26,553 nt of DNA from Planctomycetota bacterium (GTDB lineage: Bacteria > Planctomycetota > PUPC01 > JACPCR01), in contig JASLXP010000143.1 in assembly GCA_030740295.1 (NCBI GenBank), positions 1 through 26,553 on the forward strand. Reading direction: 5' to 3'. The notes beneath the pieces were generated by a model. It saw only the letters and a program-made list of their open reading frames with translations, was not told the DNA's origin and did not search any database. The position numbers and the translations under genes were made by a program. Positions 2,675 to 23,560 of the stretch are shown piece after piece; within the stretch, counting starts at the first letter, position 1, and each line of letters starts with the position of its first letter.

Positions 2675-5074
2675 TCACCGGTGATTCAGAACTTCTGTGA
2701 GGGTGACGGACAGGCGCTCAAACTTTAGAGGCACATTGCGGGCACGGCCCGGTTCCGCGCTGAGGACCAGGTATAGCCGGTCGCCGCGCTCGACTTCGAT
2801 ATCAGGCATTTTGAGTGCAAAGGGATGCTTGTTGGTGAAGGTCACGCCCTTCAGATTGCGGAACGGTCGGCTGTGTTCGAGGGACAGGGTCGCGGGTTTA
2901 TCGGGATTCGAGGCGTTCGCGGCCAGGAGGCATGATACGTCAACCTTTACCTTTCCCTGGATTGGGCTGCGCCAGGAGAGGACGCGAAGTGCGTAAGGGC
3001 CGGTGGACATGACGAACTCCGGCACGACGTGGCGTTTGCCGTCGCTCTCGGTTCGCGTCCAGCGCCAGGTGAACTCGCCGGTCGGTGTCCAGTTTGCCGG
3101 GGTGTTGTAGGGCGGAGCGAACTTCGCCATGGTGTATCCCTGGCGCGGGTACCAGCCGAAGCGTTCGCAAAGCCAGTATTGGCCGTCCCGCTTCAGGGGC
3201 AGTTCCAAACCGTATTTGTGCATGTAATTCCAGACGGGCGTGCCCCGGTCGTCATAGTCCGGGTTGAACGCGTATGGCGTCTTGCCAAGGTCGAGGAAAT
3301 TCCAGACGTAGCCGTTCTGGTAGTTGCTGGAAACCAGGGGATGACTGCGCCCCTTGAATTCTTCGAGATTGGTCAGGCCATCCTCGTCGGGGTCGGCATC
3401 GGGCTCGGCTTTCGTTGTAGACGCCCAGTTACCGAAGCGCTCGCCAAACCAGTACATCTCGAACCAGTTGGGCAGGCCGTCTCCGTCGTCGTCTGCGTAT
3501 TCGCCGCGCTGCATGGGTGCGGGGTCGGCATCGCCAAAGTCGGCCTCCCAGTGGCGTTCGTCTTCGGTGGATACGCAGACCATGCTGTGCTGTTCCCGAT
3601 AGGGTTTTTCGGTGATCGGCTCAGGGCTCTGCAGTCGAACGACGACCTTGTCTCTGCGCGCGACTTCCGCAATCACCGGCCCCGGCGACAACGGGAACTG
3701 CTTCCAACTGAGGCCGGCGGGCGCATCCCATGCTTCGTTGCGGCCGGGCAGTCGGACACGGGCCGAATTGGTCAGGATGGTCAGCACTTCGAGCTTGTTC
3801 ATTGACTCAGTGTCCCGCCAATAACTGCGCTTGCGGAAGGGATAGACGGACAGTTCGTGTCGGTACTTCGGGTAGATCAGGTAGACCTTGTCGTGTTCGG
3901 GCTCGGGCGGCGCGCCGGTTTTCCACCACTTCACAAAGTAGGCGTTCAGGTCTAGCAGGCCATACCGCGTGTCGGTGGTCGGCGCCAGGCTGGTGGCTTC
4001 GTGATAGTCGTTCCAGGTGGTGAACTGGATCAGGGTGGAGTTGTTTTCGCGGGCCCGTTCCCAACGCTCGCGGACGGCGTTGCCGCCGGGAACGAGCGGG
4101 AATGATCGGGCGCGGTATCCCTGCCAGAGCAGGTTCTCGTATTGATAGATCAGCGGCTCACCCCATTCGGCGCCCCTCGCAGTGACCGCCCGTGCCACCG
4201 CGTCGTAGTCGCTCGGGCCGCTCTGGCAGTGGAAGGCCGTAATGGCGTCGAATTCCTCAGCCAGTATGCCGATGGTCTCCTGCCAGTTCGTCTCGGACTT
4301 GGGCTTGCCTTTCATTCCATGGAAGAGAGCGCCGAAGCTGAACTGGAAATACATGGGCGTCTTGAACCGCTGTTCCAGATCGCGGTAGCCCTCGCGCAGC
4401 AGGCGGAGGAATTCCGGCGAGGCGCGCTCTTCCGGCGAATCGATTCTGATGTTGGGGTAACGCTCTTTGAAGACTCGACGGGCCCCATCGATGCCGCTGA
4501 AGACCGACTGATAACCAAGCATCAGCACCTTGCCATCGCGGCGGGCGAGCTTCGGGCTGTCGCCGTGCTTTTCGAGGATGTGTTCGATCGCCTGGAGACT
4601 CCGATCCCAGTTGCTGAGACACCAGGTGATCTCGAACGGATAGTCCTTCTCCTCGGCCACCTTGAACATGGTATCCATGACCGGGAAGACGTTGTTCGGC
4701 CCGCCGGCAATGGCCATGAACGCGAAGCCGTCGATACCGGCCCGCAACGCCCGCCTGATCTCCAAATCCGCCGACGCTTCTTTCGAGAGGCCATTGACAC
4801 TATCCGGCAGCAGCGGCACGCCCCGCACGCGTCCGCCGAACGCATGCTCGAAGTTCGCCGAATCGTGTCGATGCTCTTTCTGTTTACTGCGCGCATAGCC
4901 CGGCGAAATGCCACCGCCCCCAATCGGAAAGCAACCCATGTAATGCGCGAAGATTTTCTTCTGCCGCTGGCTGAGTTTGGCTCGGCGGGTTACCCAGCGA
5001 TCGGTGCCATCCTGCTCTGCGAACGCGGGGAGCGCGAAGAGCGCGAGAGCGATGCATCGTAGCCACAGGTCCAC
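2675..5074 (-). CDS. Secreted GH71-like (alpha-1,3-glucanase type) hydrolase with calcium-binding motif
   Basis: About 799 residues if translation starts at the GTG at 5074, chosen because it sits directly before the signal peptide (LWLRCIALALFALPAFAEQ). ATG codons exist only upstream: 5227 overlaps the preceding stop as ATGA, and 5335 lies inside the preceding gene. Both would put about 50 or more residues ahead of the signal peptide. The mature protein begins with KKIFAHYMGCFPIGGGG, then IRRALRAGIDGFAFMA, PFEITWCLSNWD and FTTWNDYHEATSLAP, a pattern like GH71 endo-1,3-alpha-glucanases and GH99-like barrels. From about residue 528, DDDGDGLPNWFE and DADPDEDGLTNLEEF resemble type-3 calcium-binding repeats common in secreted Verrucomicrobiota proteins. 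A C-terminal beta-sandwich (DRLYLVLSAEPGRA) follows. The signal-peptide DNA is shared with the gene at 9287-13204. Family call is fairly firm; start codon is uncertain. Confidence 0.75.
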   Translation of the reverse strand: MDLWLRCIALALFALPAFAEQDGTDRWVTRRAKLSQRQKKIFAHYMGCFPIGGGGISPGYARSKQKEHRHDSANFEHAFGGRVRGVPLLPDSVNGLSKEASADLEIRRALRAGIDGFAFMAIAGGPNNVFPVMDTMFKVAEEKDYPFEITWCLSNWDRSLQAIEHILEKHGDSPKLARRDGKVLMLGYQSVFSGIDGARRVFKERYPNIRIDSPEERASPEFLRLLREGYRDLEQRFKTPMYFQFSFGALFHGMKGKPKSETNWQETIGILAEEFDAITAFHCQSGPSDYDAVARAVTARGAEWGEPLIYQYENLLWQGYRARSFPLVPGGNAVRERWERARENNSTLIQFTTWNDYHEATSLAPTTDTRYGLLDLNAYFVKWWKTGAPPEPEHDKVYLIYPKYRHELSVYPFRKRSYWRDTESMNKLEVLTILTNSARVRLPGRNEAWDAPAGLSWKQFPLSPGPVIAEVARRDKVVVRLQSPEPITEKPYREQHSMVCVSTEDERHWEADFGDADPAPMQRGEYADDDGDGLPNWFEMYWFGERFGNWASTTKAEPDADPDEDGLTNLEEFKGRSHPLVSSNYQNGYVWNFLDLGKTPYAFNPDYDDRGTPVWNYMHKYGLELPLKRDGQYWLCERFGWYPRQGYTMAKFAPPYNTPANWTPTGEFTWRWTRTESDGKRHVVPEFVMSTGPYALRVLSWRSPIQGKVKVDVSCLLAANASNPDKPATLSLEHSRPFRNLKGVTFTNKHPFALKMPDIEVERGDRLYLVLSAEPGRARNVPLKFERLSVTLTEVLNHR

Positions 5075-5195
5075 AGGATCCCGCTTGGACTGCCCAGCAT
5101 GTGGTCTCTGCGGGATGGCCTGACGGCCATCAACGACAAGCTGGCAGCGGTGGCAGCTCGGCCCTCCGTTGTCGCCGTCGCCTTCACGGCACGAA
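4971..5195 (-). repeat. Duplicated 5' cassette, copy 1 (upstream leader plus signal peptide)
   Basis: About 200 bp closely match 13104-13295. The match covers noncoding sequence (hairpin GGCCTGACGGCC, CAACGACAAGCTGGCAG), the signal peptide codons, and about 15 codons of the mature protein (DRWVTRRAKLSQR here, DRWATRRAKLSQR there). In this copy the 29-bp palindrome holding the ATG in the other copy is interrupted by about 25 bp, and the ATG is replaced by CTG. Confidence 0.85.
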
Positions 5196-5223
5196 GGCTT
5201 TCCCTGGCTGTTCCAGTGCTGCA

Positions 5224-12200: not shown

Positions 12201-13204
12201 AAGATGCGGTATTCGCCGTGGTCAAGCTCTCCGTGCGGCTCAAGGAAATCGATCACATTCGGCTGCGACGCGTATTCCTGAACGATCCCCTGGAGCATCG
12301 AGAGCTGTTCGTCCTTGGCCGTCGTGGCGCACCACGAGAGCTGCCGCCGCCCGTCGTGGTGCGGCTCGGCTATGCTGTGAAACGACCCGCAGTATTGTGG
12401 CATCTTCTGCTGCACCTGATCTCGGTAACGGTCGAGCAACCAGGTCGGCGCGGCAGACATCGTGTTGATGACCACCGGCAGTTTACGCCGGGCGGCCGCA
12501 CGAGCCGCCCAGTCCCACCACACGTTGTTGGTCAGCCCGATGCCAGTATCCACGTCCGCCGGGCTGGCCCAGAAGACAAAGCCAAGGCGACCGAGCCGTT
12601 TGGCGAAGTCGAACTCGTCCAGCACGGAGTAGTCGGCCCATGTCGTCTCCCTGTTCGGCAACTCGTAGGGCCGGTAATAGAAGCGGAATCCGTACTTATC
12701 CCACGCATCAAGGAGCATAGGCACCTCCGCGGAAGTGTCCGCAGCCTCCCAACGGGTCTTCTCCCGCAGGGCAGCGAGAAGGCCCCGGCTGCGCGACGCC
12801 AGGATCGCCACCCGCCGTCCACGCTGCACGACTCCGATCCATCCTTGCCCCTGCGCCCGCATGACCGGTAGGCCCGCGATGGCGTCGGCGGATACACCTC
12901 CCAACAATTGCAGGTCGCTCCAGCACTTGGCCGCAACGATTCGCGCTCTTCCCGTATCTTCAGCCGTGATGATCAGCCTGGAAGCCCCGTCTGCATAGGA
13001 GCGAAAATGCCCCGAAAGCCCGCCATAGCCCCGAAGCCGGGCCTCCGGCAGACGCATCGATTCCTCCCGCTTCAGAGGATCGGCCGCGACGTAGGTCGGC
13101 CGCTGACTGAGCTTGGCGCGGCGGGTCGCCCAGCGATCGTTGACGTTCTGCTCTCCGAACGCAGGGAGCGCGAAGAGTGCGAGCGCGATGCATCGTAGCC
13201 ACAT
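9287..13204 (-). CDS. Giant secreted GH42-like glycosidase, paralog of the next gene
   Basis: 1305 residues from the ATG at 13204, chosen because it sits right before the signal peptide (MWLRCIALALFALPAFGEQ). The frame is open to an earlier ATG at 13333, which would add 43 repeat-encoded residues. Domain order matches the gene at 5224-9237: N-terminal beta-domain (RLRGYGGLSGHF), barrel with candidate acid/base E326 (EPHGELDHGEY) and GH42-like YRSLRKLNRRWFG, inserted jelly roll (AVLNGHEVGRDTLQHATPHW), second part of the barrel with candidate nucleophile E650 (SLEPGGPA), GATase-like domain (VIVDTNSSVMDESLIDG; WPISRLTGYRV), and C-terminal jelly rolls ending INGRYIRKHHH. It heads unit A. The ATG lies inside the 15-bp palindrome CATGCTGGCAGCATG, which could occlude initiation. 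GH42-like assignment is by motif and domain layout; substrate unknown. Confidence 0.75.
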   Translation of the reverse strand: MWLRCIALALFALPAFGEQNVNDRWATRRAKLSQRPTYVAADPLKREESMRLPEARLRGYGGLSGHFRSYADGASRLIITAEDTGRARIVAAKCWSDLQLLGGVSADAIAGLPVMRAQGQGWIGVVQRGRRVAILASRSRGLLAALREKTRWEAADTSAEVPMLLDAWDKYGFRFYYRPYELPNRETTWADYSVLDEFDFAKRLGRLGFVFWASPADVDTGIGLTNNVWWDWAARAAARRKLPVVINTMSAAPTWLLDRYRDQVQQKMPQYCGSFHSIAEPHHDGRRQLSWCATTAKDEQLSMLQGIVQEYASQPNVIDFLEPHGELDHGEYRIFLEYGPAADRSYQHFLRGKYRSLRKLNRRWFGEKRLSDWSEVRVPEVASFVGWNERAFDLTGEWRIGYEEFAEGTALQPHQLRGMHNDDIPTKPVPDEWYAPDFDDSTWPSLRAPGNDRMMFLPKRPAVFRRRFELDGWLVEGQRAWLVVWDLNLGKHVKSTMRAVLNGHEVGRDTLQHATPHWAAFEVTDALRPGANVLALRLPKGVLAYRTYLTQSPPRQYPALGEHLNAQWVDFADWQRWSRLEMVRRGMEMIRQADPDRSIICMSPDRYFSGIKRLCEEYGGRFHNTGHMGGFWNDYLPMLMRGSDLPFSLEPGGPARSLESFKNMMGLYFTEGIQAIHYFIHVGNIFWPDDIRRHFEDIQPLVHTIGKVHPPKAKAAMLLSNRISNLTRYPWRKNYNVNLRSGYWGWRFSDALADHYHIDGLTELDFESGNADPYRVIVDTNSSVMDESLIDGIDQWVKRGGIFVTAIQSGRHTPERPDSWPISRLTGYRVTGIDPHRPDGGEGRTRRFTFVEGQPIFAPEDFRVDKNHYANGLSLERVSDDCRDLIRWEDGPVAAGLRKLGRGYVVHLGIKFGNGRGGGGGNYLKIFRRVLEWAEVPALGARAEGVILRHYVSNNGLFDVWTLWNRDPKKPVRTRLEFDVEPPRCTDVKTRAEIDPARLTFAPLETKILLTPRNRIETAPLDWFRLQRNWWRGTKRPSRTSLRKPDTTNILDLTDSWACKPLSEEAKDDPAPLADPSLDDSAWPRRRLGYWAVPEELPSRHVFFRRRFKVPQQWQRGEMTLWLRSWFSSFVDGRARYWLDGKELPAGDGRYGIIKELSLAPGSEHTLAIEVRGSGQVTGMRGNAWLHFRPADKAKLNLAGSWIPTRDMLRDESPVRVPGKYQGLAAIRRKVRIPSDWQGQIYLYFKGTYALTGAIINGRYIRKHHHALGEATHLNITSLLKDGENEIEILLSGKSELWEVELRLY

Positions 13205-13295
13205 GCTGCCAGCATGTAGTCTCTGCGGAACGGCCTGACGGCCATCAACGACAAGCTGGCAGCTCGTCGCCACGTTGTCGGCGTCGCCCTCAGGA
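13104..13295 (-). repeat. Duplicated 5' cassette, copy 2
   Basis: Partner of 4971-5195. It includes the noncoding hairpin GGCCTGACGGCC, an intact CATGCTGGCAGCATG palindrome whose second ATG is the start codon of the GH42-like gene, and the signal peptide codons. Beyond mature residue about 20 the two proteins have nothing in common, so the cassette joins one secretion leader to two different enzyme families. Confidence 0.85.
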
Positions 13296-13330
13296 CACAA
13301 AGACACGAGGGATTCTGGGGATGCGGTAAA

Positions 13331-13415
13331 CATGGGTGGGTGAGTTTACTTTAATGCTTCGTGTGATGGTCTCTTCTGATGAATGTCGGGTATGACAGGA
13401 TCGTGGACATCGTAG
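13331..13415 (-). promoter_or_regulatory. Conserved leader A (promoter-like) upstream of unit A
   Basis: On the minus strand the order is GGCTACGAT, then TCCACGATC (13407-13399), 15 nt, then ACATTCAT (13386-13379), ending at an ATG (13333) about 77 nt after the first box. The same boxes with identical 15-nt spacing occur at 17157 and 22789. Promoter function is inferred from position at three unit heads; no canonical -35/-10 is obvious. Confidence 0.5.
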
Positions 13416-13439
13416 CCACATGCTGCCAGCATGTGGTCT
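13411..13439. repeat. 29-bp palindromic repeat around CATGCTGCCAGCATG
   Basis: A 29-bp unit running from CGTAGCCACATG to CATGTGGTCT. Exact copies lie at 17360-17388 and, inverted, at 17577-17605. A near-identical copy forms the start of the gene at 9287-13204, and a copy split by an insertion lies at the start of the GH71-like gene (about 5059-5107). Confidence 0.9.
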
Positions 13440-13488
13440 GCTCACTCCGTGAGTAGTTCAGAGGACTCACGGAGTGAGTCCACCACTT

Positions 13489-13570
13489 TGGAGTGCGCCG
13501 ACTCGTCGGCGCTTTAGATCGTCATTGTGCATCCCAAGAATCCAAAGCGGTGACGAGTCACCGCACTCCA
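13489..13570. repeat. 82-bp element with 29-bp imperfect terminal inverted repeats
   Basis: The left end (13489-13517) begins TGGAGTGCG and contains the palindrome GCGCCGACTCGTCGGCGC. The right end (13542-13570) contains GCGGTGACGAGTCACCGC and finishes CGCACTCCA. The two ends match as inverted repeats at about 24 of 29 positions around a 24-bp interior. It has the form of a MITE or a paired REP element. Related copies lie at 17438-17520 and 16223-16643. Confidence 0.8.
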
Positions 13571-13581
13571 TAGGACTACTG

Positions 13582-13653
13582 GGCGCGCCGGCACCCTTGC
13601 CGGCTTCTTGTGCAACGCCTTCGGCGTTGGAACCGGCTGCGGGCCGGCGCGCC
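13582..13653. repeat. 72-bp GGCGCGCC-bounded multi-hairpin element
   Basis: GGCGCGCC at both ends encloses three potential hairpins: CCGGC/GCCGG, AACGC closed by a cUUCGg tetraloop, and CCGGC/GGCCGG. It starts 30 nt downstream of the Asp-box propeller stop codon, so it may end unit B transcription. An inverted relative of the same 72-bp length lies at 23515-23586. Confidence 0.75.
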
Positions 13654-13683
13654 CAGGGGGACACACGCCTCGGAAGCGTCGTT

Positions 13684-14793
13684 CTATCTCGCAAGGATCA
13701 TCACCAGATCGTTCTGGATGAAGCCTGGCACATCGCCGACGGCCCAGACGCGGCGGGGGCCGAGAGCAAAGATGGCGTTGATTTGTTTTTGGCCGGACAT
13801 GGCGGCTACCCAGGTCTTGCCTGCGTCCGTCGATTCATACAGGGCGTGGCCCGGATGCAGAATGTCGTGGTTGGCTACTGCAGCAAAGCCGCGGCGAGAG
13901 CGGTCGAACCATAGTCCCGTCGACCATTTGCCTTTCGGCAGATGACACGGACTCCAACTCTCGCCCCCGTCATCGGTACGCCAGATTCGGTTGTCCGGGC
14001 CTGCGACCCAGCCCTGCCGACTGCTGCTGAAGAACACTTCGGCGCGATGGCCTCCTGCTGCTGACGCGGCCGGAAGGTTGCCGAGGGGCATCCACGTGGT
14101 TCCACCGTCGACGCTCTTGACCAGGCGCCGCTCGCGGTGGTGTCCGCCCACCACGTAGATCACAAACCCCTTCGCAGTTCCGATGTCGCCCGGGATGGCG
14201 ATTTTGTCGGCCCGGTGCAGCCCGCCTCCACGGAATTGCGCACGACGCCATGTTATGCCGCGATCGTCGCTGCGATAGGATGGGAAGCCGCTGCAAAGTA
14301 ACCAACGCTGATCCCCACGGCAGTACAGGTCAGTGTAGCCGCGAAACGTGCCGGGCGCGACCTCGTTCCAGGAGCGGCCATCGTCGGTGGTGTGCCAGAG
14401 GCGTGCCTTCCCTTTCCCATGAAATCCTTCGAGCAGCCAGACTTCATGGCGCCCGCTCATTTCGATGTGATACCAGCCGCCTTTGGGTTTCGTCCGCGCC
14501 CAGGTCAGCCCGCCGTCCCCCGTCCTGAATACGCCACCGTACCCGCAGGCCCAGCCGACTTTCGCATCCCAGAAATGAACGTCGTGCAGCTTCTGGCGAA
14601 TGTCTCCCTTGCCGAATCCGCCGCCGCTGCCACCGGAATCGAGCACAAGCCAAAGGGATTTCGGGTTTTGGTTTTCGGAATTCGGATTCGCCGCCGGATA
14701 CGTCACGCCTTGCCATAGGCCCTGGGCGCTGGCAGTTCCCACGAAGCATAGACAGACTACGGCAGAGCGTGCCGTGTTCTTGCGTCCTATCAC
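13684..14793 (-). CDS. Secreted Asp-box (BNR/Ycf48-like) beta-propeller
   Basis: 369 residues from a GTG at 14793, supported by an AAGGAG Shine-Dalgarno (14799-14804) 5 nt upstream and a signal peptide ending near TASAQ (residue 24). Six Asp-boxes of the form SxDxGxxW occur at about residues 90-98 (RTGDGGLTW), 134-142 (HTTDDGRSW), 174-182 (RSDDRGITW), 227-234 (KSVDGGTTW), 272-280 (RTDDGGESW) and 320-328 (ESTDAGKTW), enough for a complete six- or seven-bladed propeller. Asp-box propellers include sialidases and the Ycf48/Hcf136 family. I see no sialidase Arg triad, so binding or scaffolding is more likely than catalysis. The GTG overlaps a TGA in the alternative frame of the preceding gene (GTGA). 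Residues 37-44 contain an NSENQNPK stretch encoded by a degenerate AATCCGAAA-type repeat. Confidence 0.8.
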   Translation of the reverse strand: MIGRKNTARSAVVCLCFVGTASAQGLWQGVTYPAANPNSENQNPKSLWLVLDSGGSGGGFGKGDIRQKLHDVHFWDAKVGWACGYGGVFRTGDGGLTWARTKPKGGWYHIEMSGRHEVWLLEGFHGKGKARLWHTTDDGRSWNEVAPGTFRGYTDLYCRGDQRWLLCSGFPSYRSDDRGITWRRAQFRGGGLHRADKIAIPGDIGTAKGFVIYVVGGHHRERRLVKSVDGGTTWMPLGNLPAASAAGGHRAEVFFSSSRQGWVAGPDNRIWRTDDGGESWSPCHLPKGKWSTGLWFDRSRRGFAAVANHDILHPGHALYESTDAGKTWVAAMSGQKQINAIFALGPRRVWAVGDVPGFIQNDLVMILAR

Positions 14794-14808
14794 TTCTGCT
14801 CCTTCACC

Positions 14809-16146
14809 TTAAACGCGCCCCAGAGCTTCGGCTGAATCGCTGCTTCGATGGTCCTCCAGGTCCGGATGGAAATAGTGGCTGTCTGGTAGATAGTCCAGGG
14901 ACATGTTGTTCGCTCCCCGCAAGGTCGCGGACCGCCAGACCACATTGGCCAGGGCCTTCGTCTCCTGCATCTCCCGGACGTTCTTCTCGGCCCAAGCCTT
15001 GATCCATTTCACTGGCCGGCCGAGATTCGTCTCATCGAAGCCGGTCAACTTCCGCAGTTCCTCGCCGGTGGCCGCTTGGACTTGGTCCTGCTGAGGGAAC
15101 TCCCAGGGGTTGTCCTTCCACTTCGGATGGTTCATCACCCAGCCCATGGGGTTGCGCTCGGTCACATAGTGCGGCTCGGCCATGAAGTAATTGCAGATCA
15201 GGATGTTGTTCTTATCTCGGCTGACTGCCGGCGTAGCCTGGATCGGGACGTACTTGTCCATCTCCTTCATGTAGTCGCCCCACAAGTCCTTGGCGTCTAC
15301 CAACTGGAGGTAGCCGGCGGGGCCCGGAGCGCGCTTCCCTGAGAAGCGGAGGCGATATTTCTGCTCAAATCGGTTCTGGTAAAGGCGCTTGGCGGAGACC
15401 GCGTGCGCCCAGCCCGTGGTGATTCTCACTTCGTACTTTTGGTTTCCAGGGGAAAGCATCATTTCGCCGTATTGTGCGCGCCAGGTGTCGTGCACTCCCA
15501 GACGGCAGATCCCCAGGGCCAGTTTGCGGTCCTGCAAGACCGCCGCCGGCACGAAAAGGTTGTTGCTGGGGTAGTTGATCCGGATAGCCCCGGGAAGCGG
15601 CCCGACCAGCAGGTCCTTGGTGGTCGGCAAGTTCCATCGCCATTGCCCCAGATGGCCGCTGTCGGCCGTGGCCTGGTCAAGATTCAGGTCCATGATTCTC
15701 GCATCGAAAGTCGTCAACCAGAATTCCGGGGCGACTTCCGCTTCGAGTACCACATCCAGTCCATTGTCACCGACGGGCTGAAACCTCACCTGCCACCAGG
15801 CCCCGGCATTGGCGAAGTCCTGGCGATAGACGAGCCCGGCCCCCTCTTTCCGGAAGCTGGCCTTTCCGTCACCGAGAAAGACCGGATCGCCCTGCTTGCT
15901 GACCGCGCGGAACTGGACGCTCTGGCTGGGAGTCATTTCCACCTTGCGGAACACTCGGGCCGTCGGATCGAACACCTCCCGCGTGCCGCCACCGATCTTG
16001 CGCAGTTCCGGCCTGGATGGCAGGACCACGGTCTGACCGTTCCACTGCACGCGAAACTTGTCCTGCCCCACCAACTCGATGTGCATGTCCGCGAGGCACG
16101 GAAGGACCGCACTGGCCACCAGCAAGGCAATTATGGGCTTGTTCAC
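14809..16146 (-). CDS. Exported enzyme-like protein of unrecognised family, probable 3' frameshift
   Basis: 445 residues as it stands, from a GTG at 16146 with an AAGGAG Shine-Dalgarno (16154-16159) and signal peptide MNKPIIALLVASAVLPCLA. Residues about 20-290 look like a large beta-sandwich, followed by what resembles the start of an alpha/beta barrel (NILICNYFMAEPHYV; ALANVVWRSATLRGANN; DSHYFHPDLE). I do not recognise the family. The frame ends EDHRSSDSAEALGRV at TAA 14809. One base fewer in GGAGG near 14853-14857 would instead give ETIEAAIQPKLWGAFKVKEQK and a TGA at 14790-14792, overlapping the next gene's GTG as GTGA (about 451 residues). This looks like the original end. Even so, the barrel would be short, so an older internal or C-terminal loss is possible. 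Confidence 0.65.
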   Translation of the reverse strand: MNKPIIALLVASAVLPCLADMHIELVGQDKFRVQWNGQTVVLPSRPELRKIGGGTREVFDPTARVFRKVEMTPSQSVQFRAVSKQGDPVFLGDGKASFRKEGAGLVYRQDFANAGAWWQVRFQPVGDNGLDVVLEAEVAPEFWLTTFDARIMDLNLDQATADSGHLGQWRWNLPTTKDLLVGPLPGAIRINYPSNNLFVPAAVLQDRKLALGICRLGVHDTWRAQYGEMMLSPGNQKYEVRITTGWAHAVSAKRLYQNRFEQKYRLRFSGKRAPGPAGYLQLVDAKDLWGDYMKEMDKYVPIQATPAVSRDKNNILICNYFMAEPHYVTERNPMGWVMNHPKWKDNPWEFPQQDQVQAATGEELRKLTGFDETNLGRPVKWIKAWAEKNVREMQETKALANVVWRSATLRGANNMSLDYLPDSHYFHPDLEDHRSSDSAEALGRV

Positions 16147-16592
16147 TGCGTTGCTCCTTCAGTTGGTGGGGGCACCGGCACATCGCGGGTCACCGCACCC
16201 CATAGGGGCTGCCCCCACGCCCTGGAGTGCGACGGCTTGGCGTCGCTTTGGATCTCGACCGATTCGTCCTGATGCACCGACGCATCCCGTTCTGTCACGC
16301 GGCACGCAATGCGGTCCGCGGCCGAGTCGTAGCACTTGAAGCCCACATACAGCCAGGTATCGTCCCGCGCCACCCACGCTTCGGTCTGTTGCGTCGCGCT
16401 CTTGCCGCTGGCGAGCAGCTTGAAGTCCGCGAAATCCGCCTCGCGCTGCCAGCAGGTCTCAGTGAGCATTCCATCAACCGCCACCTCCGCATTGGTCACC
16501 GACACCTTCGCTTTCGGGCCGCCGGCCCCCGCGGCGCTGCTCGCCGCTGCACAGACCAGACTGAAGATGCTGAGAATTCGTGAGGCCTCCAT
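16143..16592 (-). pseudogene. CBM9-like exported domain truncated by inverted-repeat DNA
   Basis: 149 residues from an ATG at 16592, chosen for the AAAGGAG Shine-Dalgarno (16600-16606) and signal peptide (MEASRILSIFSLVCAAASSAAGA). An ATG at 16709 lies in the neighbouring fragment and repeat. VTNAEVAVDGMLTETCWQ, ARDDTWLYVGFKCYD and HQDESVEI are typical of family 9 carbohydrate-binding/DUF1083-like domains. Immediately after DESVEI the frame enters the terminal repeat of the element at 16223-16643, and the last 37 or so residues (from SDAKPSHSRAWG) are repeat translation. The second half of the domain is therefore missing. The stop overlaps the next GTG (GTGA). It may still be made as a short exported protein, but I regard it as a degraded gene. 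Confidence 0.7.
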
Positions 16593-16643
16593 GATCAGGC
16601 TCCTTTGCTGAAAACCAAAGCGGTGACAAGTCACCGTGCTCCA
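16223..16643. repeat. Inverted-repeat element enclosing the CBM9-like gene fragment
   Basis: The left end (16223-16251) and right end (16615-16643) are the same 29-bp termini as in the compact elements at 13489 and 17438, matching each other as inverted repeats at about 21 of 29 positions. The 363-bp interior starts just before the Shine-Dalgarno of the CBM9-like gene and ends at its DESVEI codons. Partial termini lie just outside (about 16174-16202 and from 16662), separated by similar TAGGGGCTGCC spacers. Confidence 0.6.
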
Positions 16644-17065
16644 TAGGGGCTGCCGTGCCCTTTGGAGTGAAACAGCAAGCAACATATGCTGGTCTGAGAT
16701 CTCAGGCAACCTATCGGATCTTCCTCGGGGACACCCCGGACATCAAGAGTCCTCCCTTTGCGTCCTTGGACCCGAATGGCTCCCTGGAACGTTTTGGTCC
16801 CTGGGGGGATCATGACGGTCGTCTTCGCGGTCGTCCAGTCGGCCGATTTCTTGAGTATCAGGCCGGTCCAGTTACCGACCAGCTTCTCGTTACCGTCCAG
16901 CTTGTAGAAGATGAACCAGGCGCCGCCGTGGAGATGAGAGTGTTCCACATCGGTGCCATAGGTGCCAGTCAGCTCAGACTCATGTTCCGCACCATCAAGC
17001 TGTATCACCGGTGACTTGCAGGCCGCGATGCCGCTGTCTTTGGGGCCTTCGAGCCGGATGAACAT
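16631..17065 (-). pseudogene. Beta-sandwich (carbohydrate-binding-like) fragment ending in repeat
   Basis: 144 residues from an ATG at 17065 with a weak AGAAGG site about 7 nt upstream. There is no signal peptide. The frame is open a little further upstream to a TAA near 17136. MFIRLEGPKDSG, SPVIQLDGAEHES, WFIFYKLDG and IPPGTKTFQGAIRVQGRKG have the strand pattern of a jelly-roll carbohydrate-binding domain. The last 15 or so residues (LFHSKGHGSPYGAR) and the stop codon come from the inverted-repeat DNA at 16631-16675. It heads unit B behind leader B, so it is probably the remnant of a longer gene that lost its secretion signal and 3' end, though a small functional protein cannot be excluded. 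Confidence 0.5.
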
Positions 17066-17180
17066 CGTCGCGCCTTCTGCGCATAGGTGTGTGAATGTAC
17101 TGATTGCTTCGTGTCTCTGTTCGCTGCTCGTTTATGGATGTCTGGAAGAGTCAGATCGTGGACACAATCGTAACCACATT
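17065..17180 (-). promoter_or_regulatory. Conserved leader B (promoter-like) upstream of unit B
   Basis: On the minus strand: GGTTACGATT, TCCACGATC (17162-17154), 15 nt, ACATCCAT (17141-17134), then the first genes of unit B. The spacing equals that in leaders A and C, and an ACACGAAGCA segment downstream is also shared with leader A. Confidence 0.5.
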
Positions 17181-17218
17181 GCTCTGCTGACGGAGTGAGC
17201 AATTCATGCACAAGCGTT

Positions 17219-17349
17219 GTGGCACGGCCCGTGTTTCGTGGTTCAAGCTTCCAGCTTTCGATCTGTTTCTTGGCAAGCCGGAGGCTTACCCCACACAGTG
17301 GCGCAAGCGTCCCGCCCGTGGAAGAACACGGTCGAGACGGCCGTGCCAC
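17219..17349. repeat. 131-bp element with perfect 11-bp terminal inverted repeats
   Basis: GTGGCACGGCC at 17219-17229 is exactly complementary to GGCCGTGCCAC at 17339-17349. The interior shows no gene. It is MITE-like in form; no transposase is present in the window. Confidence 0.65.
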
Positions 17350-17359
17350 GATTGAGAGT

Positions 17360-17605
17360 CGTAGCCACATGCTGCCAGCATGTGGTCTGCTCACTCCGTG
17401 AGCAGTTCTGAGGACTCGCGGAGTGAGTCCACCACTTTGGAGTGCGCCGACTTGTCGGCGCTTTGGATCGGTTTCAGGATATCGTAGAAATCCATAGAGG
17501 TGACGAGTCACCGCACTCCATAAACTCCTGGGCGTTCCAGCACCCTTGCCGGCTCTTTTCTTCAATGCCTGGGGAAAGACCACATGCTGGCAGCATGTGG
17601 CTACG
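17360..17605. repeat. Composite repeat bounded by exact inverted 29-bp palindromes
   Basis: 17360-17388 and 17577-17605 are perfect inverted copies of the 29-bp unit at 13411. Between them are the CTCACTCCGTGAG/GACTCGCGGAGTGAGTC pair, the 83-bp element at 17438-17520, and a degraded 5' half of the 72-bp element (CAGCACCCTTGCCGGCTC). The module order matches 13411-13600, so this is a second array of the same composite. Confidence 0.8.
17438..17520. repeat. 83-bp element with 29-bp imperfect terminal inverted repeats
   Basis: Second compact copy of the 13489 element, with GCGCCGACTTGTCGGCGC on the left and GGTGACGAGTCACC on the right. The 25-bp interior differs from that of the first copy, so the termini are conserved and the contents are not. 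Confidence 0.75.
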
Positions 17606-17617
17606 ATGGCGGTACCG

Positions 17618-17653
17618 GCCTGGTTCCGCGCTGAGGAGGTATAGCCGCATCGA
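17618..17653 (-). other. Short relic matching the 3' end of the GH71-like gene
   Basis: About 31 of 32 aligned bases match 2745-2777 around GGTTCCGCGCTGAGGA, with a 3-nt gap. On the minus strand it reads RLYLLSAEPGR, against RLYLVLSAEPGR in the hydrolase C-terminal domain. It lies just downstream of the gene at 17695-18417 and outside any gene. Confidence 0.5.
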
Positions 17654-17694
17654 GAGTAGAGCTGACGTTTCCAGACGCAGTTGGGATCGGCGGA

Positions 17695-18417
17695 TCACCG
17701 CTCTCGAAATGGAAGTGTCGCAACGCGGTGACAGAGGAGGTCGTCGAGGAAGAAGCGGAACCCGCGACGGTTGGGGGTGAGGTTAAGCATGAACAACGGG
17801 GACGGGCCCTGAGCGACGGTGCAGGCGACGGGTATTGGTTTGCCCATCGGTACGGAGCCTTTGGCAGTGAGAGTTTCGAGACCTGCCCATGCCTTTGGCC
17901 CGGTCTGAGACCGCGTGGGAAGCCATAATCGGACACGATACCACTGGCCGGACTTGTAGCGGCCAAGTTTGCCGCCGCGCAGTTCCGCTGGCGGCTTGGG
18001 CTGGTACGTGCGCACAGAAAGGGTGTTGAAGCGGAAGCCCAAGGCGAGAGCACGCTTACTACCATTGCGCAGCTCGATTCCGATGTGGGCATTGGCGCCT
18101 TTGCCTTCGATGCGGAAGGCGAAGGCCAGGAAGGCCCAGCCGGCCTCGAACGACGGGAGCGCGGTCTGGACTCCCCACTGAGCCTTGTTTGTGCCGGATG
18201 CGCGATCCAGAAGAAACGACTGCCGGCCGGAAACGGATTCGAGATTCGTGACCACAACAAGGTCGTCCCCCATCGGGCCCCAGGCATGACGCCAGGCGCG
18301 GGGCCATTCGCCGGGTGCCTGGTCGTCGAAGCTCTGCTGCAATGCGTCTTCGCCGATGGCCGGGTGCGAGATCAGCGCAACTGTAAACAGCAACAATGGA
18401 CTCAACCTGGAACTCAC
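17695..18417 (-). CDS. Secreted single-domain beta-sandwich protein, function unknown
   Basis: 240 residues from a GTG at 18417 whose last two bases plus the next form the stop of the GH2-like gene (GTGA), implying coupled translation. Signal peptide MSSRLSPLLLFTVALISHPAIGE. The rest (QQSFDDQAPGEWPRAW; RQSFLLDRASG; GWAFLAFAFRIEGKGANAHIGIELRNG; YRVRLWLPT; FRFFLDDL) has the strand pattern of a concanavalin-like/LamG or DUF1080-type jelly roll. No catalytic motif is evident, so glycan binding is the likeliest role. It is the last gene of unit C; repeat DNA begins within about 100 bp of its stop. Confidence 0.65.
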   Translation of the reverse strand: MSSRLSPLLLFTVALISHPAIGEDALQQSFDDQAPGEWPRAWRHAWGPMGDDLVVVTNLESVSGRQSFLLDRASGTNKAQWGVQTALPSFEAGWAFLAFAFRIEGKGANAHIGIELRNGSKRALALGFRFNTLSVRTYQPKPPAELRGGKLGRYKSGQWYRVRLWLPTRSQTGPKAWAGLETLTAKGSVPMGKPIPVACTVAQGPSPLFMLNLTPNRRGFRFFLDDLLCHRVATLPFRER

Positions 18418-21400
18418 CAGTAGTGGTACTCGTAGGGATCGAAGAAGTCGATGTCGTCAGGGTAAAGAGAGACCGGAGGATCGGCTTCCCTGGATGTGGC
18501 GTCGCCCCCTCCGGTCGAGAGATTCGCCCAGAAGCCGAATCCTTTGCTGCCGGCAAGGACTTTCAGGGCGATGACGTTCTCGCCCTTGCGCAGGCGGACC
18601 CTGGTCTGGTGCCGGTTCGGCTTCGGTGAGCCGTGTCCTTGAAACAGCCGGTAGACGACCTCTCCGTTTACCCAGACCTGCATGAAGTAATCGACTCCGA
18701 TCCGGAGGACGGCTTCGCGTTCGGCCTCGCTGGTGACGGTGCGGGTCACGTAGGCGACAGCCGCGGCAGTGGGCTTCAGTGCGGTCTGGAGATCGACGAA
18801 TCCGTTGGCGTTCGCGGTCACGGTGTCCCGGAAATCGAGCTGCGTGCCGTCAGCTCCTTTGTAGGTGAAGTTGGGATTGGTGTCACCGGCAATGGCGTTG
18901 GTTTCGCCTGGGAAACGCGTGTCGAGAGCGGCCTTGGGCGACTGGCCCTTCGGGTAGAAGGGCCCCAGAACATTCCAGGTGGCGAGGGTTTCATAGGCCG
19001 GTCCGGCGCGGAGCTCGCACAGGCGGCTGGCCAGAGCTGCGTCAGGCATGGCGCCCGCGTTGGTCAACAGTTGGGCGTGGAGTTGCCGGAGCCGGTGGAC
19101 GCTCATCCGCATCGCTGCGCGCCTGGCAGGATCGTCTGTGTATCGTCCGTCGAGCAGAGCGGGCGAAGCCTGGACGAACAGCCGTTCACCTCTGCCCAGC
19201 TTCTGAATCAGGAAGAGGCCGTCACCCGCCACCGTGCATCCCTCCGGCTGCCCCGTCTCGCTGAAGGCTGGCAAGGTGATCGCGTCGCGCCAGCGAAGAA
19301 GACGCGGTCCGACGGCGTTGAAGAGCGGCCCGGTTGGAACCGACGCCCGGTAAAGGCTCACCGTTTCTGTTGCAAAGCCTGCTTCCTTGAGGTCGCGGGC
19401 CGGACGAGACAGGACCACCGCGCGGGCGCCCTGGCGGACGGCTTCGAGGGTAACTGGATCGTTCAGTGATTCTTTGGGTCCGACGACCCGCAGAGGAGCT
19501 GCTTCCGGTGCCTGTGCGACCGCGGCCCGGAGCAGGTTTGCTGCGAGCAACGTGGCCGCGGGGCCGCTGCCGATGCGGCCTTCAAGATCAAGGGTGCAGA
19601 AAAGGATCGAGCCGCGGCCGTATCGCCACTGGAGTAGCGGCGAGTAGTCGAGGTCGAATTCGCAGTTGAGCAAAGGGGTGAAGCCAACAGCCGCAGGAAG
19701 GCGCAAGACCACACTGGCGACTGCGCCGCGGTTGCTGCCTTTGGGTGCTCGTGGGCCATCGTGTGCGTAGGCATGACGGAAGGTGGGCAACAGGTCCGGG
19801 CTGCCGCGCCAGTCACGCAGGTCGGCGGGCCGCAGGCCATCCAGCACGGGGTTGCCCTCCACCGCGACGAAGACGCGCCGGGTCATCAGGTCATCGGGCC
19901 GGAAGCCGAGGGCCTCCCACATCTCCGGCCGTTGGGCAAAGACGATGACGTTGAGGCCGCGCCTCAGATCGTTCGGCGAGTAAGGCATTCGGGCGCCCGG
20001 CTGGAGCGCTTCACGGCCAATAAGAAGCAGGTCGTAATCGGCAAGCGAGTCGCCGGGCTGAATCGCGGTGGCGGACAGACCAAGCTGCGTGAGCCACGCG
20101 GCGGTGTTACCCCGTGGGTCCCACACCGCGGCTCTGGTCTTCGGAGCGCGGGGTTGAAGTCGAGGGAAGACCTGCAATGCAAAGGTATCCGATGAAACCG
20201 GCTTGTCGTCTTCGGTGACATTCAAGTGGAGTGTCAGCTCGGTCCGCGCCTCCGTTGCGGGGGCCTGACAGTTGATCGGCGAGAAGGTGACATCGCCAGC
20301 TTTGACTTCAAACGTGGCGGAGTTTTCACCGAGCACTTCCTTTCCCTTGCGCAACTGCCAGCGGGCATCGAGACGGCGGCTGCCGGGCCCATCCCAGACC
20401 ACTGCGATCTGTTTTCGGATGGTCTCACCCGCGTAATAGGCGTGGGTCTTGTCTGTGAATAGTGGCGCGCCAGCCAGGTAGGCGAGCAGGGGCTGCATCG
20501 CGGCGCGGTGCATGTCGTAGTTTGGATTGGCCCATGGCGGGCGCGCCGTGACCGGTTCTGTGAGCGCTGCGTATCGGCTGAAACGATTGAATTTGGCACC
20601 GGGCGGGTCGCCGTAGCCGACCCCGAAGTTGAAGTAGTGCCAGCCCTGGATGCCCCAGGTGCGCCAGGCACGGTCACTGTGAGTCACGTAGAGGCGACGG
20701 AGAGTCCAGTACATGGGGAAGTTGGGAATGGCCTTCCCGATTGAGTTGCCGTGGCCCCGGTTGCCGAGGCCGATCTCGACGGTCTGTCGGAGCAGGGCTT
20801 CGGGCTCCTGACGGTAAGCTTCATTGCCGAAGTAGATGGCCGAGAACTCGGTGCCGAGGAACTGGCTCTTGTTGTAGAACGACCCGTTGTAAGGCAGCGA
20901 GTACTCCGCCGCGATGTAAGGCATGTTGCCTTTGGCGGCCCAGATTTCGGGGTAGTCCTCGACTTCCTGCAACGGCATGAAGTTGGGGTAGGTGTTGGCG
21001 GTCGCGAGGTCGGTCAGGTTGCCGTCCGCATGACCGTAGACCAGGCGTGTGGGATCCAGCGACTTAACCATGGACGCGGCGCCTTCGATGGCCTTGGCCT
21101 GGTGGTGCGTATAGTTGGAGCGTTGTCCCATGGTGTCGGGGTGGATGGCGTTGCGCGGGTTGAAGGAATTCATGCTGACGCACCAGGCCAGGAGACAGGG
21201 ACGGTTACGGTAGCGTCGTACCCAGAGCTCGATCTCACGCTGGAAGTCGGCGCGGGCAGTCGCGTCACGCAGGGCCAGATCGCGGATGTTGCTGATACTG
21301 GGGGCCGGCAGCAGGAGGCCGATACCGGATTCATCCAGCAGGTCGAGGAGCGCGTCGTTGTAGTAAGGCGTCTCGCTCCAGTCGCACCACCATGCCGTGG

Positions 21401-22475
21401 GATTGTTCTGGGCGTAGACCACATTGCGGCCCAGGAGCTTGAGGAGGGAGACAGAATTCGCGTTGATGCCGAAGGACGTCCATTCCATCCGCCACCGTGA
21501 AACGTGGCCGTTCAGGTAGACGTGGCGGCCCTCGGTCCAGATTTCACGGAAGCCGAAACGCTGGGGCGGCAGTGTGTCGAGCACGCCGTCCGGCCCGATG
21601 AGCCGCGCCGTGAGTGTGTAGAAGTGGGGCGCCTCCAACTCCCAGGGAATGGGATCGGCCCAGTCCGTGGCGATGGCCTCAGTCGAGCGCCCGGCGGCCA
21701 GAGTCACAGGCTTCCTGCCGAAGCTGAGCACCGTCTTCCCTTCTCCATCGGCGACGACGACCTCGATCTGGGCGCCTGCGAGCGCCTGCGTGGTCTCGAT
21801 GTCGAAGTCGGCCGAGAGCTGCTTCTGTCGCCACGAGGTACGGATGAAGACACCGCTGATCGCCGCGGGCGTTGGCCGGCGGATGAGGGTGACGGGCGCG
21901 GTGATGCCCTGCCCCCAGCGCGTTACTGACAGGTTGCGTCCCTTGGGGCCGCGGGTGCGGTATCGTAGAGGGTCCTGCTCGAAGCCGCGGGAGATATCGG
22001 TGTAGTCGCGGGTGACGAAGACGCGCAGATCATTGTCCGCGCCGAAAGTGATGGCCGGGGTCAGCTCGATCTCGCCGCCCGGCCGCAGCAGCTCCCCGAT
22101 CCGCCGGTCGCCACAGAAGACAATTGCGTCGCCCTCGATACGGCGGAAATCGACCCAAACTCGGTTCCCCTTCCACGCCGCGGGAATTGCCAGAGTCTGG
22201 CGGTACCAGAGCGAGTGGACGGTATTGACGTTGAGCTTGGCCCAACGCTTGACGCGGCGCAGGGCGTGTTTCCACCTGAACGGCCCGTCCAAGACGGTGC
22301 CCCATTCCGGCGAGGCAGGCCCCACCGCGGCCGACTCCGCCGGCTGTAACTGCCACTCCCGCGGCAGATCCACTCGCTCGTCTCCACGTACTGCAGGTGT
22401 CAGGAGTACAAGAAGGATGGCGAGCACGAACGGTCTACCGTTCCGGGGCCGAATATTCAGACTTGGAATGTTCAT
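18414..22475 (-). CDS. Giant secreted GH2-like protein lacking the usual acid/base glutamate
   Basis: 1353 residues from an ATG at 22475 that overlaps the previous stop (ATGA). Signal peptide MNIPSLNIRPRNGRPFVLAILLVLLTPAVRG. Domains in order: GH2 sugar-binding jelly roll (about 40-190; SLWYRQTLAIPAAWKG; WVDFRRIEG), Ig-like sandwich (about 200-310), TIM barrel (about 310-640), a beta region, a GATase/trimerisation-like domain (about 760-1010; YDLLLIGREAL), and a C-terminal sandwich (about 1160-1340; MQVWVNGEVVY; RKGENVIALKVLAGS). The nucleophile position is kept (E524 in YIAAEYSLP). Where GH2 enzymes have Asn-Glu after a Trp strand, this protein has AWCVSMNSF (N436, S437). It may use another acid/base or be a binding protein. 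The C-terminal domain recurs in the protein at 25301-26553. Confidence 0.8.
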   Translation of the reverse strand: MNIPSLNIRPRNGRPFVLAILLVLLTPAVRGDERVDLPREWQLQPAESAAVGPASPEWGTVLDGPFRWKHALRRVKRWAKLNVNTVHSLWYRQTLAIPAAWKGNRVWVDFRRIEGDAIVFCGDRRIGELLRPGGEIELTPAITFGADNDLRVFVTRDYTDISRGFEQDPLRYRTRGPKGRNLSVTRWGQGITAPVTLIRRPTPAAISGVFIRTSWRQKQLSADFDIETTQALAGAQIEVVVADGEGKTVLSFGRKPVTLAAGRSTEAIATDWADPIPWELEAPHFYTLTARLIGPDGVLDTLPPQRFGFREIWTEGRHVYLNGHVSRWRMEWTSFGINANSVSLLKLLGRNVVYAQNNPTAWWCDWSETPYYNDALLDLLDESGIGLLLPAPSISNIRDLALRDATARADFQREIELWVRRYRNRPCLLAWCVSMNSFNPRNAIHPDTMGQRSNYTHHQAKAIEGAASMVKSLDPTRLVYGHADGNLTDLATANTYPNFMPLQEVEDYPEIWAAKGNMPYIAAEYSLPYNGSFYNKSQFLGTEFSAIYFGNEAYRQEPEALLRQTVEIGLGNRGHGNSIGKAIPNFPMYWTLRRLYVTHSDRAWRTWGIQGWHYFNFGVGYGDPPGAKFNRFSRYAALTEPVTARPPWANPNYDMHRAAMQPLLAYLAGAPLFTDKTHAYYAGETIRKQIAVVWDGPGSRRLDARWQLRKGKEVLGENSATFEVKAGDVTFSPINCQAPATEARTELTLHLNVTEDDKPVSSDTFALQVFPRLQPRAPKTRAAVWDPRGNTAAWLTQLGLSATAIQPGDSLADYDLLLIGREALQPGARMPYSPNDLRRGLNVIVFAQRPEMWEALGFRPDDLMTRRVFVAVEGNPVLDGLRPADLRDWRGSPDLLPTFRHAYAHDGPRAPKGSNRGAVASVVLRLPAAVGFTPLLNCEFDLDYSPLLQWRYGRGSILFCTLDLEGRIGSGPAATLLAANLLRAAVAQAPEAAPLRVVGPKESLNDPVTLEAVRQGARAVVLSRPARDLKEAGFATETVSLYRASVPTGPLFNAVGPRLLRWRDAITLPAFSETGQPEGCTVAGDGLFLIQKLGRGERLFVQASPALLDGRYTDDPARRAAMRMSVHRLRQLHAQLLTNAGAMPDAALASRLCELRAGPAYETLATWNVLGPFYPKGQSPKAALDTRFPGETNAIAGDTNPNFTYKGADGTQLDFRDTVTANANGFVDLQTALKPTAAAVAYVTRTVTSEAEREAVLRIGVDYFMQVWVNGEVVYRLFQGHGSPKPNRHQTRVRLRKGENVIALKVLAGSKGFGFWANLSTGGGDATSREADPPVSLYPDDIDFFDPYEYHYW

Positions 22476-22717
22476 TTCAAGTTCTCGGAGACGATGGTGA
22501 AGTACTCGACCCGTGCGTGTGCCGCGTTCTGGCCGTGAAAGGTCGTCCAGGAGGCTTGTCTGTTGCCTTCGCCGAAGAACCGCGCTTCGACCCGGACATC
22601 GCCAAAGCCGCGCGCCGCGGCGTGGAAGGTCTCGACCTCGTCCGCATCCGCCGCGGTGAGGGCCAGGAGGGATGGCAGAAACAGTGCCGTTGTCAAGATC
22701 AGTTTCTCTTGATGCAT
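22472..22717 (-). CDS. Small exported protein, function unknown
   Basis: 81 residues from the ATG at 22717, preferred over an upstream ATG at 22831 because a signal peptide follows directly (MHQEKLILTTALFLPSLLALTAADA) and because leader C aligns with leaders A and B up to this ATG. The mature part is only about 56 residues (GFGDVRVEARFFGEG; ARVEYFTIVSENLK). The stop overlaps the GH2-like start codon (ATGA), so it is the first gene of unit C and may serve partly to couple translation of the next gene. It could be the remnant of a longer protein. No family is recognised. Confidence 0.55.
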   Translation of the reverse strand: MHQEKLILTTALFLPSLLALTAADADEVETFHAAARGFGDVRVEARFFGEGNRQASWTTFHGQNAAHARVEYFTIVSENLK

Positions 22718-22815
22718 GTTGCTCTGGGAACTCTGTGTAATCGCTTTCAGCACCGCGTCGTCCTTATGAATGTTAGAACAGCCGTGAGCGTGGACAAGAA
22801 TCGTAGCCGGCCTGA
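22717..22815 (-). promoter_or_regulatory. Conserved leader C (promoter-like) upstream of unit C
   Basis: GGCTACGATT, TCCACGCTC (22794-22786), 15 nt, ACATTCAT (22773-22766), then the ATG at 22717, 80 nt from the first box. Box spacing is identical to leaders A and B. Here the upstream 29-bp palindrome is absent, which separates the leader from that repeat. Confidence 0.5.
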
Positions 22816-22883
22816 GATTGATTCGCTGCACCCCAGAGCTAAGATTACTGTTAGGCTTTGCTAAGCATAGAAGGTGGAAAACA

Positions 22884-23099
22884 ATGAAAACAGTGAAGGC
22901 AGTTTATGAAGGTGGCGTTTTCCGTCCGATGGAAGAAGTAGACCTGCCGGAAACTTGCGAGGTTGAGTTCGAGCCCCGTCTGGTGAACGCTGATGACGAT
23001 AAGGCTCAGTCTCGAAAACGCATCTCCAGTATTCTGTCACGCCGGTTTCAGAGCGGAAGAAGAGATGTGGCTGCTCGCCATAACGAGCACCAGCCATGA
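22884..23099 (+). CDS. DUF104-type antitoxin (VapB-like)
   Basis: 71 residues from the ATG at 22884, chosen for the AAGGTGG Shine-Dalgarno just upstream and because the family motif starts at the second residue: MKTVKAVYEGGVFRPMEEVDLPE is typical of DUF104/AF2212-like antitoxins, which are small beta-rich DNA- and toxin-binding proteins. The C-terminal half (SRKRISSILSRRFQSGRR) is basic and probably contacts the toxin. Its stop overlaps the toxin start (ATGA). The pair is divergent from unit C and convergent with the propeller gene at 23646, so it is an independent insertion in the locus. Autoregulation would be expected for the family, but no operator was identified. Confidence 0.85.
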   Translation: MKTVKAVYEGGVFRPMEEVDLPETCEVEFEPRLVNADDDKAQSRKRISSILSRRFQSGRRDVAARHNEHQP

Positions 23100-23560
23100 G
23101 CCAGGTATTCCTGGATACCGTTGGATTACTCGCGCTGTGGGACACGAGCGATCAGTGGCACGCGGATGCCGAAGCAGCGTACAAACTGATGGACGATGAA
23201 GTTGAATTCGTTACTACCTCATTTGTGTTAGCCGAGTGTGGAAACGCCGCTGCAAGACGTCCATATCGCAACGACGTCGCTGAATTACGCATAGAATTGG
23301 AGCAGGCGGGTCTGCTCATCTGGCCAACAGAAGAAGACTGGCAAGTCGCCTGGGAAGAATATTCCAGGGGCCAGGCGGGTGGAGCTGGCATCGTGGATCA
23401 TCTTTCCTTCGCCGTTATGCGTCGTGAGGACCTAGAGAAAGCTTTCACCAATGACCGGCATTTTATGGCGGCAGGTTTTGAGACTCTGTTCCGAGTAAAC
23501 CCACGTCTTCCGCGGGCGCGCCGGCTCCCAGCCGGCCTAACGCCTGAAAGGCGTCTCTGA
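23096..23560 (+). CDS. vapC: PIN-domain ribonuclease toxin (VapC-like) with repeat-encoded C-terminal tail
   Basis: 154 residues starting inside the antitoxin stop (ATGA). PIN-domain toxins are Mg-dependent ribonucleases held inactive by the partner antitoxin. The four expected acidic residues are present: D7 (VFLDTVGLLALW), E47 (LAECGNAAAR), D101 (GIVDHLSFAVM) and D120 (TNDRHF). The family normally ends soon after HFMAAGFETLF. Here about 19 residues (NPRLPRARRLPAGLTPERRL region) and the stop codon are encoded by the 72-bp hairpin element at 23515-23586, so the native 3' end was replaced or extended by the repeat. The core appears intact, and activity is plausible. Confidence 0.85.
   Translation: MSQVFLDTVGLLALWDTSDQWHADAEAAYKLMDDEVEFVTTSFVLAECGNAAARRPYRNDVAELRIELEQAGLLIWPTEEDWQVAWEEYSRGQAGGAGIVDHLSFAVMRREDLEKAFTNDRHFMAAGFETLFRVNPRLPRARRLPAGLTPERRL

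Follow-up and report, generated by a model that had tools for sequence, protein, structure and literature searches.

A shared two-box leader element ahead of three gene runs in a Planctomycetota contig: a possible promoter-type element, at one site beside a REP palindrome

Among described systems, ECF41 promoters are the nearest published form found, as far as the accessible part of their description goes. Their consensus is given there as TGTCACA-n16-CGTC, with a spacing of 16 ± 1 between the -35 and -10 elements (PMC3426412). A second described feature, the GTAG-tagged REP element, also bears on the locus presented here. According to the accessible part of one report, GTAG-tagged REPs occur in several phyla, including Verrucomicrobia, and Opitutus terrae is rich in them (PMC3733652); their architecture is also covered in the accessible part of a second (PMC8266576).

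The stretch of DNA analyzed, hereafter the window, comprises 26,553 nucleotides of a Planctomycetota contig (JASLXP010000143.1). An earlier note had pointed to a two-box motif on the minus strand ahead of three gene runs, and all three places proved to be exact matches to TCCACG-N15-ACATNCAT, the only three in the window (sites A, B, and C; Table 1). The spacer of 15 nt is counted from TCCACG and not from the longer box TCCACG(A/C)TC; the fuller core common to the sites is TGTCCACGnTC-N12-ACAT(T/C)CATnA. By a gene model with starts at 22717, 17065, and 13205, all three sites are intergenic and lie on the same strand as the genes, in a window of which 6.9% is intergenic. This model ignores mechanical ORFs over sites A and B that were judged spurious (22472-22831, from a GTG; 22397-22864, plus strand; 17005-17583).

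Table 1. Two-box sites, their leaders, and the adjoining palindrome (positions in the window)
Feature	Coordinates	Strand	Sequence or length	Remarks
Site C	13379..13407	-	TCCACG-N15-ACATTCAT	Exact match; heads the gene run from 13333/13205 to 1
Site B	17134..17162	-	TCCACG-N15-ACATCCAT	Exact match; heads the gene run from 17084/17065 to 13684
Site A	22766..22794	-	TCCACG-N15-ACATTCAT	Exact match; heads the gene run from 22717 to 17695
Leader, box 2 to ATG, site C	13334..13378	-	45 nt	ATG at 13333; related to the site B leader (pairwise alignment vs shuffles)
Leader, box 2 to ATG, site B	17085..17133	-	49 nt	ATG at 17084; related to the site C leader
Leader, box 2 to ATG, site A	22718..22765	-	48 nt	ATG at 22717; no above-shuffle kinship to the B and C leaders
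GTAG-tagged REP palindrome	13408..13439	+		Repeat family D3; abuts box 1 of site C; the GGCTACGAT named in the earlier note is its foot

The shared leader element is real and non-random. On the minus strand of the window, TCCACG occurs 15 times and ACATNCAT five times; pairs of the two at most 200 nt apart show spacings of 15 (three pairs), 69, and 175, with 0.003 pairs expected per fixed spacing. When up to three mismatches are allowed, the window holds 12 motif matches against a shuffle mean of 5.4, and none of 100 shuffles reaches 12. Within the 300 nt preceding each run's first ATG, the two-box motif itself emerged as the best ungapped alignment of the three sequences at a width of 29, with 16 of the 29 columns invariant. 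Dinucleotide shuffles reach this value in 0/160 cases (mean 11.7, maximum 14), a result that somewhat overstates the case, as the test treats the leaders as independent and those of B and C are not.

The sites resemble ECF41 promoters, as the accessible text presents these, in having two boxes, a -35 element opening with TGTC, and a position ahead of genes. The 16 nt from TGTCCAC to ACAT at all three sites agree with the described spacing of 16 ± 1. Both boxes nevertheless differ: all three sites have TGTCCACG in place of TGTCACA, and all three have ACAT (box 2 being ACATYCAT) in place of CGTC. Membership in the ECF41 group, on the form given in that source, was therefore rejected. Housekeeping sigma-70 promoters share the two-box layout and a comparable spacing, but a scan for TTGACA and TATAAT separated by 16-18 nt over 13300-23300 found no such site at a leader; one site was found (22480-22452) against 1.4 expected. 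None of the sigma consensuses tested or read matched the boxes, and the literature on promoters of this group yielded nothing relevant among the matches listed, for queries other than the motif letters.

The reading that we favor, with evenly balanced confidence, is that the boxes may constitute a lineage-specific promoter-type element, of sigma-factor-like spacing and not of the ordinary sigma-70 type. Strand, place, spacing, and leaders devoid of sigma-70-like sites fit a promoter for an alternative sigma factor. The two boxes would start transcription of all three gene runs, with TGTCCACG as the -35 element and ACAT(T/C)CATnA as the -10 element. They would be read by a non-housekeeping sigma factor, most likely an ECF-type one, and the transcript would carry a leader of about 40 nt ahead of the ancestral start codon. 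From this layout we infer that RNA polymerase would read the boxes through such a factor and that the three runs would be switched together. In a variant of this reading, the position would be occupied by an operator for a transcription factor, and the same data fit both. The proposal of an unusual promoter or regulator site, already made in the earlier note, draws support from strand, position, the near-constant distance to an ATG, the lack of a sigma-70 site, and the preservation of the boxes. It is weakened by the kinship of two of the leaders, by a neighboring word that is partly a REP tag, and by the lack of enrichment in the searched relatives. Three sites, two of them related, are suggestive rather than proof.

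The constant distance between box 2 and the ATG is firm at site A only, since translation of run C probably starts elsewhere and the ORF behind the ATG of site B is not intact. For run C, the signal-peptide-like start of the homologues examined is near their conserved part, so translation probably begins now near 13205, 173 nt downstream of box 2, where a REP end provides the first codons (ATGTGGCTACGATG). The ancestral start codon may have been the ATG at 13333, used until a repeat segment entered. At site B, the ATG at 17084 opens a frame of only 29 codons, and the longer ORF starts at 17065.

According to domain searches, run A comprises an 81-aa ORF, a GH2-type enzyme, and a 240-aa protein, and run C encodes GH42-like, GH71, and LamG/GH10-like proteins. 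Run B consists of remnant ORFs, a CBM9-like fragment, a 445-aa protein, and a BNR protein; the CBM9-like match scores under the Pfam cut-off and spans only positions 1-81 of the 185 of the profile. The statement that each site precedes the first gene of a polysaccharide-type unit holds for A and C but not fully for B, which opens with remnant-like ORFs and is only loosely of polysaccharide type. The ORFs heading run B (16143-17065, minus strand) resemble gene remnants cut by repeats, and the first of them contain or finish in REP-like repeats (D5, 16612-16647; D7, 16223-16254). An NCBIfam scan of six small proteins gave no match.

Each site was also said to be preceded by GG(C/T)TACGAT, and this is so at all three. 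The word GG(C/T)TACGA occurs eight times in the window, however, three times ahead of boxes and five times without them. Among the boxless copies, those at 13200, 17366, and 17599 form ends of one and the same palindrome, that at 5064 belongs to a related copy, and that at 24725 falls in coding sequence. On the opposite strand the word reads TCGTAGCC, whose GTAG forms the foot of a palindrome, CCACATGCTG-C/G-CAGCATGTGG. Palindromes with a GTAG foot stand at 13199, 13416 (site C), 17365, and 17580 and make up 4 of the 17 listed hairpins. Beside site C, GGCTACGA is such a foot, as in GTAG-tagged REP elements, and belongs to the hairpin at 13416-13436 with the foot CATCGTAG. No REP feature is found at A or B among the listed hairpins, with arms of at least 8, beside 22808 or 17175. 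The word at site B reads GTAA instead of GTAG, and the one at site A may be part of the leader there. The word is, at least in part, a REP tag; it was not counted in the fixed core because its distance to box 1 varies. The two boxes, unlike the REP elements, are not palindromic, and they are absent from the other REP copies. The intergenic regions 13191-13574 and 17357-17606 are both filled with arrays of palindromes, some GTAG-tagged and others flanked by GGAG; we take the GGAG-flanked type to resemble REPs. One stretch of 112 nt is 96% identical between the two regions. A search for the REP palindrome in genomes of the class Lentisphaeria gave 0/195.

The sequence between and after the boxes had been described as poorly conserved, which, for the part after the boxes, is correct for site A against B and C and incorrect for B against C. 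Over 70 nt downstream, B and C align with a score of 45.5 (letter-shuffle mean 26.1, sd 4.6), and over 60 nt upstream with a score of 40 (mean 19.3, sd 4.2); 0/2000 shuffles reach the observed score in either case. Site A aligns downstream no better with B (p 0.43) or with C (p 0.54) than shuffles do. In the upstream part, A and C give p 0.0035 and A and B p 0.13, both alignments finishing in the common (C/T)TACGAT word. Judged by these alignments, the B and C leaders are kin beyond the boxes and only site A, at 22.8 kb, is clearly separate, which leaves effectively two independent cases. In all pairwise comparisons of the sites, the boxes with their leading TG agree at 15 or 16 of 16 positions, and the 15-nt spacer at 4, 5, and 7 positions in the three pairs. 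The spacers of B and C have diverged (7 identical positions) while their boxes with the leading TG agree at 15/16, a pattern that favors selection acting on the boxes. The view that selection is more likely than recent duplication is strengthened by boxes kept between differing spacers and tempered by the relatedness of two of the three leaders.

The main rival of the promoter reading sees in the boxes the remnants of a leader repeat that was dispersed along with REPs into intergenic regions of this lineage and has no regulatory role. We consider this possible but rather unlikely. The kinship of the B and C leaders, the REP arrays in both intergenic regions with their near-identical stretch, and the GTAG-tagged REP adjoining box 1 of site C are what such a repeat would leave. 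Moreover, another leader stretch has been copied ahead of two enzyme genes, as set out below. Against this stand site A, with a downstream sequence at shuffle level and no REP hairpin listed nearby, and the boxes, which are kept where spacers differ and in every case precede a gene run on its coding strand. Nor are boxes present in the copied stretch at 4960-5196.

Two enzyme genes have a leader, a REP end, a start codon, and signal-peptide codons in common (4960-5196 and 13096-13302, minus strand). Pieces of this stretch are 80-95% identical (repeats D2, D9, and D13), and the GH71-type and GH42-type proteins of the two genes have no other significant similarity. Copying of leader segments, as read from these repeats, does occur in the window.

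The promoter reading was further examined in possible relatives. Within the species genomes, a search that relied on two peptide patterns found as its closest GH2 gene one of 66% identity, in a Lentisphaerae MAG (G001); placing the Lentisphaeria as relatives of the organism is based on this one gene family and is uncertain. GH2 proteins of 82-83% identity (P0002-P0004) are encoded on other contigs. Upstream of the GH2 gene of G001, no motif match was found at up to three mismatches. The exact motif occurs in four of seven individually searched genomes, once each. In the Lentisphaeria, the class of G001, it has 30 matches in 26 of 197 genomes (at most two each); in a sample of the phylum it is present in 52/387 genomes (at most four each), and in Armatimonadota in 21/201 (at most two each). 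In one genome of the phylum sample with four matches (G394), three are one identical sequence near contig starts.

A control with the wrong spacing (N18) gave 36 matches in 30/197 Lentisphaeria genomes, against 30 at N15, and three against one in G001. As the control is as frequent as the motif, these relatives show no spacing preference, and the surplus of matches at N15 expected of a genome-wide promoter class in Lentisphaeria was not observed in the 197 genomes. The backward pattern had no match in the same genomes. With one mismatch, it had 16 matches against 83 of the motif over all eight genomes, and six against 25 in G001; its rarity is attributed to a differing composition, and the N18 spacing is the better control. 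Among the 44 distinct exact matches with a locus, to which this count is confined while other listed matches are left out, 40 lie inside predicted genes, three between genes, and one across a gene end. The one-mismatch matches of G001 lie inside genes in 17 of 21 cases (20 stretches; 21 of the 25 in the genome). None of 163 upstream regions of G001 (400 kb) contains TCCACG-N15-ACAT, and strong dyads were likewise absent, whatever their type. Viral contigs gave no match to three patterns. No searched relative visibly employs the motif as a promoter class.

A broader proposal combines both sets of observations. A promoter class confined to the lineage (TGTCCACGnTC-N12-ACAT(T/C)CATnA, recognized by an alternative sigma factor) would co-activate polysaccharide-degradation runs and would have been spread by leader segments travelling with GTAG-tagged REPs. 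We regard this combination as quite improbable. If the promoter reading were true, a concrete consensus at the heads of three runs would provide a testable handle on the coordination of polysaccharide degradation in enzyme-rich uncultured bacteria, and also on the reshuffling of leaders by REP-rich intergenic regions. If the boxes are a decayed repeat, they have little significance.

The boxes could also belong to a structured RNA leader, such as a riboswitch-like structure or an RNA-protein binding site, instead of acting as a DNA element. Their near-constant placing just ahead of the ATG would suit such a role. However, an Rfam search of the window gave no match up to E = 1, and none of the three leaders has a better fold than shuffles (z 0.62, 1.13, and 0.61), so that an RNA role of the boxes is unlikely, and markedly so. 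Still weaker is the view that three intergenic sequences are alike by chance and were singled out by eye: the pattern was indeed picked after the sequence had been viewed, but the shuffle test covered all ungapped three-way alignments and 0/160 reached the observed value, which makes coincidence very improbable.

On the opposite strand beside site A, a small ORF is followed by a PIN-domain protein (22818-23560, plus strand). The two look like a toxin-antitoxin pair, in which the small ORF is presumably the antitoxin.
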